Below are positions 12,780 through 22,509 of a stretch of DNA of 64,000 nucleotides, one piece after another; position 1 is the stretch's first letter, and the number at the start of each line of letters is the position of its first letter. The stretch comes from Acidiferrimicrobium sp. IK (lineage in GTDB: Bacteria; Actinomycetota; Acidimicrobiia; Acidimicrobiales; Palsa-688), in contig NZ_JAIMCB010000010.1 in NCBI RefSeq assembly GCF_025499425.1, positions 124,001 to 188,000 on the forward strand, in the 5' to 3' direction. The position numbers were made by a program, and so were the translations under genes. The notes under the pieces were generated by a model that saw only the letters and a list, made by a program, of their open reading frames with translations, had not been told where the DNA came from and ran no database searches.

Positions 12780-14066
12780 TTGCCGCCGGTGCCACCCGCT
12801 GCCAGCCTGCCGACCGGGGCCGGCATCAACCGCCGCCAGCTGGCCGTGGCCTACGCGCTGTTTGTAGCGCTGCTCGCCAGCAACGCGCCTTCTCCGCTGT
12901 ATGTCGTCTACCAGCAGCAGTGGCACTTCGCGGCGCTGACGGTAACCGCGATCTTCGGCACCTACGCCCTGGCCGTGCTCGGCTCGCTGCTCCTCGTGGG
13001 TCGCATGTCCGACGAGATCGGGCGCCGGAAGGTGATCCTCCCTGCGATGGTCATGCTCGGGGTCAGTGCGTCGGTGTTCCTGCTCGCGGAGAACGTGGCG
13101 TGGCTGTTCGTCGCCCGTGCGGTGCAAGGCGTCGCGACCGGCGCCTTGACCGGAGGGGTGGCGGCGGCGCTGGTCGAGCTCGACGATGACCGCGACCCTC
13201 GCCGGGCGTCGCTGCTCAACACGATCACGTTCGTGGCCGGAGCGGCGACCGGGCCGCTCCTATTCGGGGTGTGCGCCCAGTACCTGCCGGCTCCGACGGT
13301 GCTGCCCTTCGCAGTGGAGCTCGGCCTGGTGGCGATTTCGGTGCCGCTGCTGCGCTCGGTGCCCGAGACGGTCATCCGCCCACCCGGCGTGCGCTGGACG
13401 CCTCGCGTGACCCGGCCCGAAGTGCCCCGGCAGGTCCGGCGGTCCTTCGCGGTGGCCGGCGCCGCGGTCGGAGTGGCCTGGTCGGTCGGGGCTCTCTACG
13501 CGGCGCTCGGCGCGACGATCAGCCGGCAGATCCTCCACGTCAACAGTCACCTGGCAGCGGGCGGCCTGCTCTTCGGATTCAACCTGCTCGGGGGTGTGAG
13601 CCAGCTCAGCCTGCGGCATTGGAGCCCCAGGCGGTCCATGGCAGCGGGGGTCGGCGCCCTCGGCGCTGGCCTGGCTCTGGTGTGGGCTGCCCTCGACGCC
13701 GGCTCGGTGGCGCTCTTCGCCGCCGGCTCGGTCCTCACCGGCTTGGGCGGCGGCATCACGTTTATGGGCAGCCTGGCGTTGATCAACCACATCGCGCCCA
13801 CCCACAACCGGGCCGGGATGGTGTCCGCGTTCAACATGGTGGGTTACCTGGCATTGGCCCTTCCCGTCATGGCCGTCGGAGTCCTCACCGGCCCGTTGGG
13901 CCTGCTGCACTCGACGGGGATCTTCACCGTCCTCACCGTCGTGGTGGCGGCGGGCACGCTGGCCGCGGTCGTCACCCACCCTGGAGATCCCCTGGCCCAT
14001 CTGACCGATGAGGAGCTCGACGGCCTCGGGCTGTCACCGGGCGCCGCGGCCAGCGGGATCACCTGA
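12780..14066 (+). CDS. Major facilitator superfamily transporter
   Basis: 428 aa with about 12 hydrophobic segments. The motif A loop after helix 2 is LLLVGRMSDEIGRRKVILPAM (G-x-x-S-D-x-x-G-R-R). ASNAPSPLYVVYQQQWHFAALTVTAIFGTYALAVL is typical of drug-efflux-like MFS proteins. The given start is TTG; a GTG nine bases downstream is equally possible and no strong ribosome-binding site decides. The C-terminus ends in a short acidic tail. The substrate is not predictable. Confidence 0.85.
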   Translation: MPPVPPAASLPTGAGINRRQLAVAYALFVALLASNAPSPLYVVYQQQWHFAALTVTAIFGTYALAVLGSLLLVGRMSDEIGRRKVILPAMVMLGVSASVFLLAENVAWLFVARAVQGVATGALTGGVAAALVELDDDRDPRRASLLNTITFVAGAATGPLLFGVCAQYLPAPTVLPFAVELGLVAISVPLLRSVPETVIRPPGVRWTPRVTRPEVPRQVRRSFAVAGAAVGVAWSVGALYAALGATISRQILHVNSHLAAGGLLFGFNLLGGVSQLSLRHWSPRRSMAAGVGALGAGLALVWAALDAGSVALFAAGSVLTGLGGGITFMGSLALINHIAPTHNRAGMVSAFNMVGYLALALPVMAVGVLTGPLGLLHSTGIFTVLTVVVAAGTLAAVVTHPGDPLAHLTDEELDGLGLSPGAAASGIT

Positions 14067-14194
14067 GCTCACGCCGGTCGCCCGCCGGACGACCGAGCGT
14101 CACGAGTCCGTAACAGAGGTATTTGCCAGAGACGGTGGCGTAACGCTCGTTTCGCGGCAATACTCTGCTCTTCAACGTCAGGTGGGAGGAAAAC

Positions 14195-17100
14195 GTGCCG
14201 AAAAGACCTGTTATCGCGCGCCTCGGAGTCCTCGGAGCAGCGGCGCTCTCGGCGGGGGTGGCGTTGCCGCTGACGCCCGGGAGCGCAGCCGCCGCACCGA
14301 CCGCGCCTATCGGGCAGCTGGCCGGTCCGCAGGCCGCTGCGTTGGCCACGGGGGCCACGCACCCGGTCATCGTGCTGTTCAAGGACCAGCTGAACAGCCT
14401 GCCGGCCACCCCCGGCCTCACCCCGCAGCGCAAGGCGGCGGTGGCCTCGCAGCAGGCCCCGGTGGTGGCTGAGCTGCACCAGCTCAACGCCCCCCACCTG
14501 AAGACCTACTCGGTGCTCAACGCCCTCAGCGCCAACGTCTCGGCCGCCGAGGAGCGCCGCCTGGCCTCTGACAGCGCGGTAGCCGCCGTGGTCCCCGACC
14601 AGACCGCCCACCTCTCCTTCAAGGCCCCCGCTGCACCCACCACCCCGGCAGCCGCCGCGCCGAGCACTGCGTGCCAGCCCGGCCCCAACGGCGTGGAGCT
14701 CGACCCCCAGGCCCTCGAAGCCATCCACGCCGACAGCAACCTGCCCGGTGCCGGGCCCACCGCCTCGTCGCTCGGCATCACCGGCAAGGGCGTGACCGTG
14801 GCGTTCATCGCCGAGGGCTTCCAGCCCAACCAGCCCAACTTCCTCCGACGCAACGGCAAGTCCGTCGTGGTCGACGAGAAGGACTTCACCGGCGAGGGCA
14901 TCGGCACAGTGAGCGGCGGTGAGGCCTCCCTCGACGCCAGCTCGATAGGGGCCCAGGGGACCAGCGTCTACACCGCCAAGTTGAGCGACGGGACCACCTG
15001 CAAGTTCAACGTGCTCGGCGCCGCCCCTGGGGCCGACATCGTCGGGCTCAAGGTGTTCCCGACCAACTACGACGCCACCACCTCCGCCATCCTGCAGGCC
15101 ATCGACTATGCGGTGACCGTCGACCACGTCAACGTGCTCAACGAGTCGTTCGGCTATAACCCGCTGCCCGACACCATGACCGACGTGGTCCGCCAGGCCG
15201 ACGAGCAGGCCACCGAGGCGGGCACCCTGGTCGACGTGTCGAGCGGTGACGCCGGTCCCACCAACACCGTCGGCTCGCCGAGCACCGACCCGGCGGTCCT
15301 GAGCGCAGGGGCCAGCACCACCTACCGGGTCTACGCCCAGGAAGGCATCACCCCTAGCGGCGTGGCCTTCAACGGCTGGGAGGACAACAACCTCAGCTCC
15401 CTCAGCAGCAGCGGGTTCACCGAGGGCCTGAAGGGCCCGAACCTCATCGCCCCCGGTGACCTCAACTGGGTGTCGTGCCAGGTCTCGGCGACCCAGTACG
15501 GCGCCTGCATCTCCGGAGGCACGAGCGAGGCGGCCCCGCTGACGTCGGCCACCGCCGCGCTGGTCATCCAGGCCTACCGCAAGACCCACCATGGGGCGAC
15601 CCCCACGCCGGCGCTGATCAAGCAGATCATCACCTCCACCGCCACCGACGTGGGGCTGCCCGCTGACCAGCAGGGCGCCGGCTTGCTCAACGCCTACCAG
15701 GCGGTCCTGGCCGCGGAGTCGGTGAAGACCGCTGACGGCTCCCCGCGGGGGAAGGGCATGACGCTGCAGACCAGCCCCGACACGATCGCGGCCACCGCTC
15801 CCGCCGGCACCACCGTCACCCAGCCGGTGACGGTCACCAACTCCGGCTCGGGCACCCAGACCGTCCACCTGGCCGGCCGGGTGCTGTCTGACCCGACCAC
15901 GCTGGCCGCCCGCCGGCTGAAGGCCACCTCGGCGAGCTACCAGCAGAAACTGACCTTCACCGTGGCCCCCGGGACGTCCTACCTGGCCGCCCACGCCGCC
16001 TTGGCCGCCGCCGACCAGAACGGCTTCGTCGACGTCAGCTTGATCGACCCGTTCGGGCGGCTGGCCATCGACGGCCTCCCTCAGGGCTCGACGCTGACCT
16101 CCAACGTCGGGGTCCGCTACCCGGCGGCCGGCACCTGGACCGCGTACGTCACCTACCAGGGTGACGTGGCCCCGAGCTCGCCGATCGACTTCGTGGCCAC
16201 CGGCCAGAGCTGGCAGCCGTTCGGGACGGTGACCCCCTCGAGCATCACCCTGGCCCCGGGGGCCTCCAAGACGGTGTCGGTGGCGGTGGCCACCCCCGCC
16301 ACCGCCGGCGACGAGACCGCCGCCATCACCCTGACCAGCCCATTCGGCCAGCCGGCGTCCATCCCGGTGGCGCTGCGCAGCCTGGTGCCGCTCACTGGCG
16401 GGACCGGCACCTTCAGCGTGCCGGTGTTCGGCGGCAACGGCCGGGGTGGCGCCCCGGCGACGACGCAGTACTTCTCCTTCGACGTCCCGCAGGGGACCCC
16501 GGAGCTGAACGTGTCGACCAGGTACCGCAACGGGAACGCCGACAACTACTCGTTGTTCCTGGTGTCGCCCACCGGTGAGGCGCTCGGCCACGCCAGCAAC
16601 CAGCTGGCGGTCGGGGGCACCACCTCCAGCCCGGTAACCGTCACCGAGGTCGGCGCAGCCAGCCACGTGCTCGCCCCTGCAGCGGGACGCTGGACGGCCA
16701 TCGTGGCGTTCGCCAACCCGGCCAGCGGACCGAACGTGTCCTCGGCGCTCGACGGGAAGATCACCCTGGCCCCGGTGGCTGCCACCGCCACCGGGCTGCC
16801 CACGGGCAGCGTGGCGCTGAAGTCGTCGAAGGTGGTGGCCGTGACGGTGCACAACACCAGCGGAGCGCCCCAGGCGTACTTCCTCGATCCCCGCCTCAAC
16901 CAGACCGTGACCCAGACCCTGCAGCCCTACAACTCCAGCGCCTCGGTCACCCTGCCCCTGCCCACCGCCACCCCGATCCCGCAGTTCATCGTGCCGACCG
17001 ACACCACCGGCCTGGCCGGGCAGCTGGACGCCACCGCACCGGCCACCTTCGACATGTCGCCCTACCTGGGCGACTTCGGCGGGGAGCTCAACGGCGACCC

Positions 17101-17509
17101 CCAGGTGGCCGCCACCAGCACCGGCGACTCGGCCACCGCCACCTGGACCGACAACCCGGTGACCCCGGGCGACTGGAACGTGGACCCGGCGCTGGTCGGC
17201 GTCTTCACGCAGCAGGGCGCCACCCCCGCCCCAGCCCACATCACCTTGCAGGCGACGACCCAGGCGTTCGACCCGGCCGTCACCACCACCTACGGGGACC
17301 TGTGGCAGACCGGGACGGTCAACCCGGTGATCGTGCAGCCGGGCCAGACCACCACCCTCTACGCGGTGATGAAACCCACTGCGGCCGGACCGGTAAGCGG
17401 CACCCTGTACGTGGACACCGCCAGCGAGCTGTCACCCTTCGGCCAGGCCATCCCGGCCGGCGACCAAGTGGCGGCCGTGCCCTACAGCTACACCGCCGCG
17501 GCGGGCTAG
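14195..17509 (+). CDS. Secreted sedolisin-like (S53/S8 clan) serine peptidase with C-terminal beta domains
   Basis: 1104 aa with GGGAGG before its GTG start. Signal peptide VPKRPVIARLGVLGAAALSAGVALPLTPGSAAAA; an inhibitor-like propeptide (about 55-150) with HPVIVLFKDQL; the catalytic domain begins near 190 (GKGVTVAFIAEGFQP). The subtilisin Asp and His boxes are missing, but EASLD (E243, D247) matches the E-x3-D pair of sedolisins, SSGDAG (D352) their oxyanion Asp, and SGGTSEAAPL (S444) the nucleophile. GAGLLNAYQAV closes the domain as in subtilases. About 560 C-terminal residues form Fn3/PPC-like beta domains (TSYLAAHAALAAADQNGF, YFSFDVPQGTPELNVSTRYRNGN). Probably an acidic-type extracellular protease. 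Confidence 0.82.
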   Translation: MPKRPVIARLGVLGAAALSAGVALPLTPGSAAAAPTAPIGQLAGPQAAALATGATHPVIVLFKDQLNSLPATPGLTPQRKAAVASQQAPVVAELHQLNAPHLKTYSVLNALSANVSAAEERRLASDSAVAAVVPDQTAHLSFKAPAAPTTPAAAAPSTACQPGPNGVELDPQALEAIHADSNLPGAGPTASSLGITGKGVTVAFIAEGFQPNQPNFLRRNGKSVVVDEKDFTGEGIGTVSGGEASLDASSIGAQGTSVYTAKLSDGTTCKFNVLGAAPGADIVGLKVFPTNYDATTSAILQAIDYAVTVDHVNVLNESFGYNPLPDTMTDVVRQADEQATEAGTLVDVSSGDAGPTNTVGSPSTDPAVLSAGASTTYRVYAQEGITPSGVAFNGWEDNNLSSLSSSGFTEGLKGPNLIAPGDLNWVSCQVSATQYGACISGGTSEAAPLTSATAALVIQAYRKTHHGATPTPALIKQIITSTATDVGLPADQQGAGLLNAYQAVLAAESVKTADGSPRGKGMTLQTSPDTIAATAPAGTTVTQPVTVTNSGSGTQTVHLAGRVLSDPTTLAARRLKATSASYQQKLTFTVAPGTSYLAAHAALAAADQNGFVDVSLIDPFGRLAIDGLPQGSTLTSNVGVRYPAAGTWTAYVTYQGDVAPSSPIDFVATGQSWQPFGTVTPSSITLAPGASKTVSVAVATPATAGDETAAITLTSPFGQPASIPVALRSLVPLTGGTGTFSVPVFGGNGRGGAPATTQYFSFDVPQGTPELNVSTRYRNGNADNYSLFLVSPTGEALGHASNQLAVGGTTSSPVTVTEVGAASHVLAPAAGRWTAIVAFANPASGPNVSSALDGKITLAPVAATATGLPTGSVALKSSKVVAVTVHNTSGAPQAYFLDPRLNQTVTQTLQPYNSSASVTLPLPTATPIPQFIVPTDTTGLAGQLDATAPATFDMSPYLGDFGGELNGDPQVAATSTGDSATATWTDNPVTPGDWNVDPALVGVFTQQGATPAPAHITLQATTQAFDPAVTTTYGDLWQTGTVNPVIVQPGQTTTLYAVMKPTAAGPVSGTLYVDTASELSPFGQAIPAGDQVAAVPYSYTAAAG

Positions 17510-17520
17510 GCCCGCAGCCA

Positions 17521-17567
17521 CGCGCCTTGGCGTCCCGGCCGGCACCGCCGGTCGGGGCGTCGGCGCG
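17521..17567. terminator. Hairpin between convergent genes
   Basis: A long imperfect stem: CGCGCC (17521-17526) pairs with GGCGCG (17562-17567), and GGCGTCCCGGCCGGC pairs with GCCGGTCGGGGCGTC around an ACC loop, with a few G-U pairs or mismatches. No T-tract follows, as is common for actinobacterial terminators. It lies just after the peptidase stop and before the stop of the convergent membrane-protein gene, so it may serve both. Confidence 0.6.
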
Positions 17568-17581
17568 TCCGGGTCCCGCGG

Positions 17582-19627
17582 CTACCGACCGACGGGTATC
17601 TCAGAGAGCCGGAGGTCTACCGAAGACTTTGAGGCCCAAGGGTCGTTGGATACCACCGTTAGAGAATGGACCGCTGGGACCGCCATAGTAGTGCCACTAT
17701 CAACGGGCCAGTTGAGCAGGTGGGCTGACGACCCAGTGCCTGTTACGAACCGATATCGGGTCGTGTTGTTGACGATGACCGAATAGGTGCCACCTTTGAA
17801 AACCGCACCAGCAAGAAGTCCGGCCAGTGACGGGCTGGTGTGGATGGTGGTCACCAACGCCATGCCCGCCGCTGGTGCCGGAATGGTGACGGCACGACCC
17901 AGCTTTGCGTGAACGTCGGCTAGCGGCTGTGCCCGTCCGCACATGTCATGGGTTCGGTGCAGCAACGTGAGAAACGGCGAGTCGGTGCTGACGACGCGAT
18001 AGTTGCATCGAAGAGCCAGCTCGGCCGCCGGGGAATCCCAGGCGGGGTTTCGGCCATCCAGGCCGAAGCTTTGCTGAAGCACCCACGGCGGCGCGTCCTG
18101 CGAGCCAAAGAACGATGCGTCCAGGTTGTCGAGCGACGATGTGTACGCCGTATATTCCTGTATCGTCGGCATGGGCTGCCATCGCAACTGCGGGTACGTC
18201 CAGGCCATCGGTTGGCCGCGGGGAGCGGCAGCGACACGCTGGCCCCTCATCTCGGTCAACCAGCTCGACGGCAACCTGTAGATGCCCTGCAAGCCGCTCC
18301 TCCCCTCTGCTTCCAAGGTCCGACGGTCTGACGGCAAGACGATCGTCTTGCCGTCAGAGAGCCAAAGGTGTGCCGCGGTTTGGGGACGCGCCACCAGCGA
18401 CGGAGCGACTCCGACCACAGCCGACTCGCAGACCGCTACGGTCAGAAGCAGAGCGGGCTGCACACGCCAAACACGTCGTTGCGCAGGACCGGCAACAGCT
18501 ATAAACAGCAGGGGCGTGGCGGCGAGGAACAGCACATCGTGTTGATCGTGGCGGACAAATGATTCCCTGAAGAGCACCTCCGTCACGACGAGAGTCATCA
18601 GTATCCACCCAGCGGCATGTGGCAATCCTCCCCTCTGGAAGCCACGGAGTCCTGCGATGACCACGACGGTGACGATGGCAACTCCGGCCAACCAGTAGGA
18701 GTAGAGACGTCCGGGCATCTCGCTGGCCATTGCCGAATATCCCGATATGAAAGCGGCCTCGAGTCTCAGCCAGGTGAAGACCGACAGCAGACTATTGCCG
18801 GTAGCAAGCCACACTGCAGCAAACGCGACGGCCAGGCCGCCGATGTAGCCGCCGAGTTGGCGGACGGCACGATCTGGTCGAAGTGCCCAGGCCACGACAA
18901 ACACCAGAAGCACTGGCGGGCCCAGGCTCACCTTGATCAGGCCGGCAACGGCAGTAAAGCCTCCGGCCATGACAAGCTCTTCCCCGAGGCGACGTCCGCC
19001 AGGCCGATCAACGATCTTGACAGCCCAAACAAAGCCCAACGGCACCAGGAATTCCACGGCGAATCCGGGGCTGATCAGCGCCATAACCAGGTAGGAGAAA
19101 AGCAATGCCGCGACGGCGGGAGCGGAACTGCGGAGGGACCGATAGATGACACATCCCGTGCACGTCTTCAGTGCGGTAAGAAACGCGAAGCCGAAAAAGG
19201 CAGGGACCGCGAAGAACAGAACTGGTGACGCCAGGAAGCCGAGAGGGCCAAACGTGAACACCAGGTGCGATCCGAATGAGAGGCGGTCTGTCGCCGCCCA
19301 TTCCAACGCTGCCCGATAGTCGTAATCGATAACATCGACCGGTTTCAGGCTCTGCGGCGAGATGTTCCAGGTGGCTATCGCCAAGAGGAACCCGATGACC
19401 AGTGGCCAGCCAAGTAGCCGCCGTGCAGTCAACGGAGCCAGGATGCCCCCACCGGACCTCTCACGCCTCGGGCGCGCAGCCGACTTCGCAGCCGAGGGAT
19501 CGGGGTTTAGCGGCGAAGGTAGGCCTGCCGTCTCCGCATCGCTCGCCATTACGAGAGATGCCGCGCTGCCCGACTGCGGAAAGCCAAGGTTCGTCGAGGG
19601 GGTGGCACTTTCGCATGCTACCGACAT
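17582..19627 (-). CDS. Large polytopic membrane protein, possibly GT-C glycosyltransferase-like
   Basis: 681 aa. The N-terminal 400 residues hold about ten hydrophobic helices; helix 1 is LGWPLVIGFLLAIATWNISPQ. It is followed by SLKPVDVIDYDYRAALEWAATDRLSFGSHLVFTFGPLGFL, whose aromatic/Asp-rich first loop recalls membrane glycosyltransferases, though no diagnostic motif is secure. The last 280 residues are an extracytoplasmic domain with Cys and Trp. Third positions contain visibly more A and T than neighbouring genes. A start nearer MASDAETAG is possible. It lies downstream of tRNA-Arg on the same strand. Possible laterally acquired surface-glycan gene. Confidence 0.65.
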   Translation of the reverse strand: MSVACESATPSTNLGFPQSGSAASLVMASDAETAGLPSPLNPDPSAAKSAARPRRERSGGGILAPLTARRLLGWPLVIGFLLAIATWNISPQSLKPVDVIDYDYRAALEWAATDRLSFGSHLVFTFGPLGFLASPVLFFAVPAFFGFAFLTALKTCTGCVIYRSLRSSAPAVAALLFSYLVMALISPGFAVEFLVPLGFVWAVKIVDRPGGRRLGEELVMAGGFTAVAGLIKVSLGPPVLLVFVVAWALRPDRAVRQLGGYIGGLAVAFAAVWLATGNSLLSVFTWLRLEAAFISGYSAMASEMPGRLYSYWLAGVAIVTVVVIAGLRGFQRGGLPHAAGWILMTLVVTEVLFRESFVRHDQHDVLFLAATPLLFIAVAGPAQRRVWRVQPALLLTVAVCESAVVGVAPSLVARPQTAAHLWLSDGKTIVLPSDRRTLEAEGRSGLQGIYRLPSSWLTEMRGQRVAAAPRGQPMAWTYPQLRWQPMPTIQEYTAYTSSLDNLDASFFGSQDAPPWVLQQSFGLDGRNPAWDSPAAELALRCNYRVVSTDSPFLTLLHRTHDMCGRAQPLADVHAKLGRAVTIPAPAAGMALVTTIHTSPSLAGLLAGAVFKGGTYSVIVNNTTRYRFVTGTGSSAHLLNWPVDSGTTMAVPAVHSLTVVSNDPWASKSSVDLRLSEIPVGR

Positions 19628-19977: not shown

Positions 19978-21513
19978 GTGAAGCTGGGTGTGCCGGGAAG
20001 CCTGGTCGGCGTGTCTTCGCCGACCCCCGGAGATCCTGTGCCCGCACCAGCCCAACCCCGCCGCCGCAACGCGTTCGTCGCCCGCCTGGCCGATGACCGA
20101 GTCGCCGGCAGCGGCCTGCTACTGGCCGCCGTCGCCGCCCTGGTTTGGGCCAACTGGCCTTCGTCGGGCTACAGCCGGTTTTGGACCGCGCACCACGAAG
20201 CGCTCAACCTCAGCCTGCGGGACTGGGCCAATCAGGGTCTGCTGGTGGCGTTCTTCGCCGTCGTCGGGTTGGAGATCCGCCGGGAGGTCATCGCCGGCGA
20301 GTTGAAGACGCTGCGCAGGGCGGTCGTCCCGGTGGTCGCCGCGCTCGCAGGCATGACCGTTCCGGCGCTCCTCTACACCGTCGTCATCGCCGGCGGGGCG
20401 GGTTCGGGCGGCTGGGGGATCCCGACGGCCACCGATGTGGCGTTCGCGGTCGCCGCGCTGACGGTGGTCGGCAACGTCGGCGGGCGAGCCCGGATGTTCT
20501 TGCTGACCCTGGCGGTGGCCGACGACTTGGTCGCCATCGTCATCCTGGTCGTCGCCTACAACCAGGGGGTCAAACTCGGATGGTTGCTGGCCGGGGCCGG
20601 TTCTCTGGGCCTGCTTGTCGGCGTGTGGTGGACGCGGGCGCCGGTCGGTGCGCTGCGCGTCGCGCTGGCCGCCGTCGCCTGGTGGTCGATGCTCCACGCC
20701 GGCGTCGAGGCGTGCGTCGTCGGCGCTGCCCTCGGAGCGTGGGGACCCCGCCGGCGGCCGGCCGACGGTGGGTACAACCCGAAGGTCCGCAGGTGGGAGC
20801 AGCGAGTCCAGCCGCTGGTGAACACCGTCGTGCTCCCCGTGTTCGCGCTGGCGAACATCGGGATCGTGCTGTCGGGCAACCTCTTCGCCGGCGCCGACGC
20901 CACCCGCATCTTCGTGGCGGTGGTCGTCGCCCGGGTCCTCGGTAAGCCGCTCGGGATCGTGGCTGGGACCGCGCTCGGGCGGCGGGCGACCCGGCAGCCC
21001 GACGCTCCGCGCGTCTCGTCGCGCCATCTCCTCGGGACCGGTGCGGTGGCGGGGATCGGGTTCACCGTCCCGCTGCTGATAATCGCCGCCGCGCTCCCGG
21101 CCGGCCCGGAGGCGACCGCGGCGACCGCGGGGCTGCTCACCGGGTCGGTGCTCTCGGTCGGCGCCGCGGCGAGCGCGGTGCGCCTCGAGCTGCGCGAACC
21201 GTGGCTGGTCGCGGTCGGGCTCGACGTGGTCCTCGCCGGCATCGACGCGGCCCTCGGCCGGCACGTGGTCATGGCCGGCCTCTTGGCCCTCGGGCCGGTC
21301 TGCGCCGCGGCCCTGTCCCGCCGGCTCCGACCGACGGCGGCCGTCGGCGCTCTAAGCGCGGCCCTGGTGTTGGTGGTCGCCGGGCCGGACGGAATCTGGG
21401 GCCGTCCGGCTCTTCTCGGGTGGGCGGCCTTGTCGGTCACCGCCGCGGTGGCCTCCGCCGCGATCGTCGCTGCGAGCGGTCCGGTCCGCCCGGTCGGTCG
21501 GTCGGAGAAATGA
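19978..21513 (+). CDS. nhaA: Na+/H+ antiporter NhaA
   Basis: 511 aa. The NhaA core is plain: LRDWANQGLLVAFFAVVGLEIRREVIAGELK, GWGIPTATDVAFAVAALTVVG and LTLAVADDLVAIVILVVAYN, where the paired Asp (ADDL) are the ion-binding residues of the family. ANIGIVLSGN and GTGAVAGIGFTVPLLI match the later conserved helices. It is longer than the usual ~390 aa because of extra C-terminal helices (AALSRRLRPTAAVGALSAALVLVVAG). GTG start; several in-frame GTGs in the first 20 codons leave the exact start open. Exports sodium in exchange for protons. Confidence 0.93.
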   Translation: MKLGVPGSLVGVSSPTPGDPVPAPAQPRRRNAFVARLADDRVAGSGLLLAAVAALVWANWPSSGYSRFWTAHHEALNLSLRDWANQGLLVAFFAVVGLEIRREVIAGELKTLRRAVVPVVAALAGMTVPALLYTVVIAGGAGSGGWGIPTATDVAFAVAALTVVGNVGGRARMFLLTLAVADDLVAIVILVVAYNQGVKLGWLLAGAGSLGLLVGVWWTRAPVGALRVALAAVAWWSMLHAGVEACVVGAALGAWGPRRRPADGGYNPKVRRWEQRVQPLVNTVVLPVFALANIGIVLSGNLFAGADATRIFVAVVVARVLGKPLGIVAGTALGRRATRQPDAPRVSSRHLLGTGAVAGIGFTVPLLIIAAALPAGPEATAATAGLLTGSVLSVGAAASAVRLELREPWLVAVGLDVVLAGIDAALGRHVVMAGLLALGPVCAAALSRRLRPTAAVGALSAALVLVVAGPDGIWGRPALLGWAALSVTAAVASAAIVAASGPVRPVGRSEK

Positions 21514-21684: not shown

Positions 21685-22509
21685 GTGCCCCGGATCCTTG
21701 TCACCAACGATGACGGCATCGACTCCGCCGGCCTCCACAGCCTCGCCCGGGCGGCCACCGCCCTCGGCGACGTCGTGGTCGTCGCGCCTGACACCGAGTA
21801 CTCCGGCGCCAGCGTGGCGCTCGGACCGCTCCATCTCGTCCAACCCGACGTGCACGAAGCGAGCATCGAGGGGGTCCCCGAAGCCTGGGCGGTGAGCGGG
21901 CCGCCGGCGCTGTGCGTGTACTACGCCCGGCTCGGCGCCTTCGATGGCGACTTCGACATGGTGCTGTCGGGGATCAACCCGGGAGCCAACGTCGGCCGCT
22001 CGGTGCAGCATTCCGGCACCGTCGGCGCCGCACTCACCGCCATCAGCGGGGGGATCCCCGGTGTGGCGGTGAGCCAGTCGGTACGAGGCGCGGCGGTCGA
22101 GGGCCAAGCCGTCGGTGACGGCCTCGACGGCCAGCAGTGGGAGACCGCGGCGACCGTCGGGGTGACCGTAGCCAGGGCCGTGCTCGGCGGCCCGGCCGTG
22201 GCGGTGAACGTCAACGTGCCCAACCTGGCGCTCGAGGATCTGGTCGGCTGGCGCCCCACGGTGCTGGCCCCGGCCCCCAGCCGGGGGATCGGCGAGGTGC
22301 GGCTCAGCCCGAAAGAAGGCGCGCCCGGCAGCTACACCGTGAAGCTGAGCTGGGGTGAGCCCCAGCACCTCCCCGCCGACTCCGACGGCGGGGCGGTGGG
22401 CCGAGGCCTGGTCTCGGTGAGCGTCTTGTCCCCCGTCGGCGCCCAGGACCCGTCGCTGCCGGTGCCCGGCGCCTCGGAGTTGACGGCGTTGGTGGGCCGA
22501 GGCCAATGA
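21685..22509 (+). CDS. surE: 5'/3'-nucleotidase SurE
   Basis: 274 aa. Starts VPRILVTNDDGIDSAGLHSLARAATALGDVVVVAPDTEYSGAS, containing the metal-binding NDD and the conserved Ser of SurE. Second motif: VLSGINPGANVGRSVQHSGTVGAAL. Third: GWRPTVLAPAP. Dephosphorylates nucleoside monophosphates. GTG start with AGGGTC upstream. A GH43-like gene follows after 22 bases in the same direction and is probably co-transcribed. Confidence 0.93.
   Translation: MPRILVTNDDGIDSAGLHSLARAATALGDVVVVAPDTEYSGASVALGPLHLVQPDVHEASIEGVPEAWAVSGPPALCVYYARLGAFDGDFDMVLSGINPGANVGRSVQHSGTVGAALTAISGGIPGVAVSQSVRGAAVEGQAVGDGLDGQQWETAATVGVTVARAVLGGPAVAVNVNVPNLALEDLVGWRPTVLAPAPSRGIGEVRLSPKEGAPGSYTVKLSWGEPQHLPADSDGGAVGRGLVSVSVLSPVGAQDPSLPVPGASELTALVGRGQ

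Follow-up and report, generated by a model that had tools for sequence, protein, structure and literature searches.

Subtilases (S8) and sedolisins (S53) share a fold, not a catalytic chemistry, and the catalytic aspartic acid is placed on a different structural element in each family. Passages of two publications on the serine-carboxyl proteinases (PMC11593635, PMC6278154) describe the change relative to S8: glutamic acid occupies the place homologous to the histidine, the aspartic acid has moved to the same helix and the asparagine is replaced by aspartic acid. Subtilases with unusual catalytic residues include the E-H-S subset of Siezen, Renckens and Boekhorst (2007), treated in a part of PMC3937732. 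No intermediate between S8 and S53 was found described in the open-licence literature searched. A family combining an S8 body with the complete S53 site would reveal which elements of the sedolisin fold serine-carboxyl catalysis requires and which it can do without.

Organization of the gene and its relatives

The window, meaning the whole 64,000-nucleotide stretch of DNA analysed, contains an ORF at positions 14195-17509 (+ strand) that starts with GTG, is open throughout and encodes a protein of 1104 amino acids; a GGGAGGA purine stretch lies 5' of the start codon. The original prediction described a secreted peptidase with a sedolisin-type active site in a subtilase-like frame. The gene, the motifs AEG (residues 206-208), AQGTSV (253-258), SSGDAG and SGGTSEAAPL and the subtilase-like domain end GAGLLNAYQAV were all present in the translation as claimed. 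The approximately 560 residues of beta domains placed after the catalytic domain were also recovered, as residues 525-1104 with weak PPC- and Fn3-like matches; the PPC profile scored 25.3 bits on the window protein, under the cut-off of 25.9, and 38.9 bits in homologue L005, and fn3_5 scored 33.6 bits in homologue L028. The features of the gene are as follows.

14195-14299, +, putative Sec-type signal peptide (~residues 1-35, ending ...SAAAAP), read from the translation
14312-14674, +, I9-like propeptide (~residues 50-140) and linker to C160; Inhibitor_I9 profile and predicted fold
14789-15688, +, subtilase-fold catalytic domain (~residues 199-498); PF00082 profile and VIA fold comparison
14810-14815, +, A206-E207, with A206 at the place of subtilisin Asp32; family alignment and alignment with S8 rows
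14921-14935, +, E243-x3-D247, proposed catalytic glutamic acid (base) and aspartic acid on one predicted helix; conservation, AF2 model and alignment
14954-15016, +, Q254-G255 to ~T274 including C269, a beta-hairpin insertion following the Glu-Asp helix; conservation and predicted strands
15248-15250, +, D352 in SSGDAG, S53-type oxyanion-hole aspartic acid; conservation and S8/S53 alignment
15476-15508, +, C428 and C438, near the nucleophile; conservation
15524-15526, +, S444 in GGTSEAAPL, nucleophile; conservation and S8/S53 alignment
15767-17506, +, C-terminal beta domains (residues 525-1104), PPC- and Fn3-like; profile matches and alignment of homologues to the C-terminus

Inspection by eye showed the gene flanked by an MFS-like ORF, which precedes it in the same orientation, and by a convergent ORF resembling a membrane protein; a promoter and terminator scan of 14000-17700 gave nothing useful. 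An NhaA-like Na+/H+ antiporter ORF (19978-21513) adjoining a SurE-like ORF (21685-22509) was also seen by eye.

Full-length relatives are rare and share 35-46% identity with the window protein. Counting matches at E <= 1e-30 and including the window's own genome, the class contained 6 carriers in 198 genomes, the order 6 in 298 and the phylum 3 in 396, with 9 in 110 genomes for the class of a Dormibacterota MAG and one in eight for a further order. A family profile search of the 396 phylum genomes gave none beyond the same three carriers. A relative is also found on a plasmid of Streptantibioticus cattleyicolor, the scan of genome contigs gave one named relative, in a Dormiibacterota fen MAG, and the viral contigs searched contained no relative.

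For the analysis of conservation the window protein was aligned with 19 homologues, the catalytic-domain identity across the 20 sequences being 36.5-97.8% (median 51%). L032, without the region, and L033, cut by a contig end with its E-x3-D kept, were left out of this set, as were duplicates (L003, identical to L020, and L002, L004 and L047-L049, copies of other rows); because L024/L025 and L027/L028 are nearly identical pairs, the 20 rows represent about 18 independent sequences. From the comparison sets the S8 rows S8_L058 (a fragment) and L059 (over 600 amino acids) were omitted, the 11 S53 rows exclude L039 and L043 (no S53 motif match), and the S53 segment taken from L037 begins at a motif match that precedes its true Glu-Asp.

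Three of the loci (L031, L032 and L033, from genomes G834 and G833) represent a divergent second copy of the family at 31-39% identity; in L031 the acid of the Asp32 strand is lost and the surrounding loop shortened, and E-x3-D is retained in both L031 and L033. The matched frames of L023 and L025 contain one or two TGA codons, with the catalytic part open; these are perhaps assembly errors or decaying N-termini. L010-L017, from several genomes of the same class, are canonical D-H-S subtilases with long C-terminal WSG-type repeats.

Proposed active-site residues and the place of the lost histidine

The four residues proposed as the active site, E243, D247, D352 and S444 (codons at window positions 14921, 14933, 15248 and 15524), were found at these positions and were identical in all 20 sequences, as were Q254, G255 and C269. 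Among the 31 acidic residues of the catalytic domain only three are invariant, and these are E243, D247 and D352; the chance of drawing exactly those three of 31 at random is 1 in 4495. They had been named from a single sequence before any homologue was compared.

The aspartic acid and histidine of subtilases are gone. Residue 206, at the place of Asp32, is alanine, proline or asparagine in every sequence; residue 207 is aspartic or glutamic acid in 19 of the 20 and alanine in the divergent L031, which keeps E, D, D and S despite this loss. The Asp-His-Ser triad of S8 is absent, the sole invariant histidine across the 20 sequences being H465. H465 comes just after a helix predicted for residues 443-464 (22 residues), which has its start at the nucleophile, and is therefore expected to lie far from S444; with the only invariant histidine past this helix none would be able to serve in catalysis. 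At the oxyanion site, where S8 rows have GN and S53 rows GD, the family has GD, with D352 instead of asparagine in all 20 sequences. The S53 order of Glu-x3-Asp, oxyanion aspartic acid and serine is likewise present in 20/20, and the nucleophile motif GGTS matches the S53 rows, most S8 rows having xGTS.

C428 and C438 are each conserved in 19/20 and probably form a disulfide near the nucleophile. C160, in the linker before the catalytic domain, is present in 19/20 and C269, in the inserted hairpin, in 20/20 (span 14672-15001); a disulfide between them could tie the mature N-terminus to the hairpin beside the Glu-Asp helix.

Alignment placed subtilisin His64 on E243 in 9/9 accurate MAFFT runs that included diverse S8 rows. 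This placement held in 37/37 S8 rows (family and S8, three modes, and the same after adding S53) and, under accurate MAFFT, in 29/29 S8 rows without the WSG-repeat subtilases. When the family was aligned with the 11 S53 rows only, the S53 catalytic glutamic acid fell on E243 in 11/11 rows and in 4/4 MAFFT modes, and hhalign forced to full length gave the same result. Other runs gave other placements: fast MAFFT set His64 on 254 or 234 (on 254 in the full sets), and the three-way alignment of family, S8 and S53 put the S53 glutamic acid on 256 instead of 243 in 3/4 runs. Against the larger S8 set hhalign placed AQG on GHG, and against the smaller set D247 on His64, by our reading of the alignment. 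With the eight WSG-repeat subtilases alone MAFFT put His64 on 247 or 256. In the printed alignment of hmmsearch against PDB, EAFLDASSIAA is read as matching the GHGTHVASIAA helix with a shift of one residue.

The predicted structure fits E243 as the replacement of His64, since a helix (243-252) is followed there by a strand (254-262). This AF2 model of residues 40-520 (pLDDT 74, pTM 0.82) has E243 as the first residue of the helix, so that E243 and D247 stand on one predicted helix, and a further strand at 268-274; pLDDT falls below 50 near D352 (model 312-320) as well as over 336-372 and 384-402. When residues 243-512 were modelled alone, the result was too poor to fix the register (mean pLDDT 52, first ten residues 31). 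On balance, E243 stands for His64 with D247 one turn later, which is the arrangement of serine-carboxyl proteinases given in the relevant passage of PMC11593635. Of the two boxes that the original prediction had assigned, AEG does lie at the place of the Asp box, with A206 at Asp32 and residue 207 one position off; AQGTSV, in contrast, probably does not mark where the His box was lost, judging from the accurate alignments.

The S8 body and its evolutionary placement

Analysis of the remaining domain revealed an affinity to S8. Scanned alone, the catalytic domain matched Peptidase_S8 (PF00082) at 95.3 bits over model positions 1-288 of 288, and PF00082 was found in 20 of 21 family members; the whole-protein Pfam scan of the window protein did not list it, apparently a quirk of the tool. 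The profile comparison upheld the proposed S8-like frame, with 93-99 bits for the S8 sets and 23.7 bits for the 11-row S53 profile, so that closest overall similarity is not to S53; hhalign scores were 295 against S8 and 111 against S53. The predicted fold matched pro-subtilisin E with a VIA Z of 35.5 (rmsd 3.0 over 341 residues) and subtilisins with Z of ~32, aligned with pro-subtilisins from model residue 15 onward and found S8 matches by Foldseek too; in both fold searches S8 entries filled the 50 matches listed, with no S53 entry among them.

The propeptide is also of S8 type. Among 21 family members 16 had an Inhibitor_I9 match, the best at 9.5e-8; the window protein itself scored 17.1 bits, under the cut-off of 21.2. 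The Pro-kumamolisin propeptide (Pro-kuma_activ, PF09286) was listed for 0/21 members; the window's own genome provided the positive control, with three PF09286 genes at other loci. The S53 C-terminal calcium-site motif is D-[IV]...G-x-D..TGxG; it occurred in 0/22 family rows and in 8/13 S53 loci. The contrast between S8 and S53 can be seen within this one genome, which, besides an ordinary D-H-S subtilase, encodes three true S53 peptidases that carry Pro-kuma_activ, among them one related to kumamolisin (1e-151). By strict membership the family belongs to neither, because it lacks the S8 triad as well as the S53 propeptide, C-terminal motif and overall similarity. Judged by profile scores, predicted fold and propeptide, the body is S8, and the family fits neither S8 nor S53 cleanly.

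A tree was calculated from 20 family, 37 S8 and 11 S53 rows (262 columns, active-site columns removed). In the best tree all 37 S8 rows stood on one side of a branch (91/81) with the family and S53 on the other, and the family (100/97) and S53 (100/100) each formed one group. AU tests did not reject other placements (p-AU 0.55-0.57), the alternatives being slightly likelier than the free tree, nor a grouping of the family with the WSG-repeat subtilases (p 0.57). No evolutionary order is claimed, because the AU tests reject neither a stem lineage nor convergence. The term S53/S8 intermediate thus holds for an S53-type site in an S8 frame, on conservation, alignment and scaffold, but not for an evolutionary intermediate, as the tree cannot tell a stem lineage of S53 apart from one that lies within or next to S8. 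We give somewhat less than an even chance to a living transitional lineage, either a stem of S53 from S8 that kept the S8 body and propeptide or an independent second invention of Glu-Asp-Ser.

Competing explanations and comparison with known systems

Overall, our analysis suggests that the protein is likely a secreted clan SB serine-carboxyl peptidase, with a subtilisin scaffold, an I9-like propeptide and the sedolisin set in place of Asp-His-Ser. The general base for S444 would be E243, which occupies the His64 position on the helix. D247, a turn further along, would take the part of subtilisin Asp32 in holding E243, and D352 would replace Asn155 as acid/oxyanion residue. With these side chains converging in space, the enzyme would, like sedolisins, degrade extracellular protein, with a putative role in nutrition, and it would be active at acid pH, since such a site depends on a cluster of carboxyls that is partly protonated. 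A working site of this type is favoured because the four residues are invariant at a median identity of 51%, because GD and GGTS are S53-like and the S53 glutamic acid falls on E243, and because L031 drops the acid at 207 and keeps E, D, D and S. It is also favoured by the co-occurrence of S53 genes (E <= 1e-15), found in 8/8 carriers examined in the class versus 5/58 non-carriers (Fisher p 2e-7; 4e-5 with one carrier per family, relatedness not otherwise corrected). This co-occurrence is not general, because in the Dormibacterota class an S53 gene passing this cut-off accompanied only 4/9 carriers (only carriers were counted there). The co-occurrence would fit an acid habitat and gives indirect support to activity at low pH.

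A different pairing, in which the strand acid 207 (E207; aspartic acid in most relatives) beside the Asp32 place partners E243 and D247 is structural, would resemble the 'sedolisin-like' subset attributed to Siezen et al. and draws on the presence of an acid there in all but one sequence. It is unlikely, given that D247 never varies whereas residue 207 switches between aspartic and glutamic acid, is alanine in L031 and is displaced by one position from Asp32 when aligned with S8. The loss of both Asp32 and His64 from every sequence would suit a pseudoprotease, a subtilase now only binding and with structural Glu and Asp; we regard this as quite improbable, for the nucleophile, oxyanion aspartic acid, Glu and Asp are invariant, no other acidic residue of the domain is, and a dead enzyme would have no reason to retain the exact S53 set, GGTS and an I9-like propeptide. 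The earlier view that the protease is not dead thus gains support from conservation, the alignment of the S53 glutamic acid with E243, the predicted helix and the S8 scaffold. Placing the family within S53 itself as a divergent member, without an S8 scaffold, would account for the same four catalytic residues, GGTS and the branch separating S8 from the family and S53. This branch, however, is not significant against the alternatives, the profile and hhalign scores lie with S8, the propeptide is I9-like instead of Pro-kuma and the S53 C-terminal motif is missing throughout, all of which makes S53 membership very improbable. A variant within clan SB that works like a sedolisin is most likely.

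Such a family would be a natural starting point for acid-active subtilisins and a useful test case for the change of one protease chemistry into another, and it indicates that a Pfam S8 label can hide two chemistries.

The CDD entry cd05562 (Peptidases_S53_like) may, we presume, already gather bacterial proteins of this kind; a literature search for the name Peptidases_S53_like gave nothing relevant. Siezen, Renckens and Boekhorst are said to have described, in 2007, odd subtilase subsets including a 'sedolisin-like' one with glutamic acid on the helix and aspartic acid on a beta strand. By that description the subset likewise has altered catalytic residues and resembles sedolisins; its aspartic acid is on the strand, whereas in the window family the invariant aspartic acid is on the predicted Glu helix. 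With S53 sedolisins and kumamolisin (1GT9, 1T1E) the family shares Glu-x3-Asp on one helix (predicted here), the oxyanion aspartic acid and GGTS; it differs in its S8-like overall sequence, its I9-like propeptide, an additional hairpin that separates the Glu-Asp helix from the APGA strand, and the absence of the C-terminal D-I/V...G-x-D..TGxG motif. With S8 subtilases (subtilisin E, Tk-SP 3AFG and Vpr) it shares the fold (predicted here), the domain order, the I9-like propeptide, the domain end GAGLLNAYQAV and PPC/Fn3-like extra domains, and it differs from them in that Asp32, His64 and Asn155 are replaced by alanine, glutamic acid and aspartic acid, with an additional aspartic acid at +4 from the glutamic acid.
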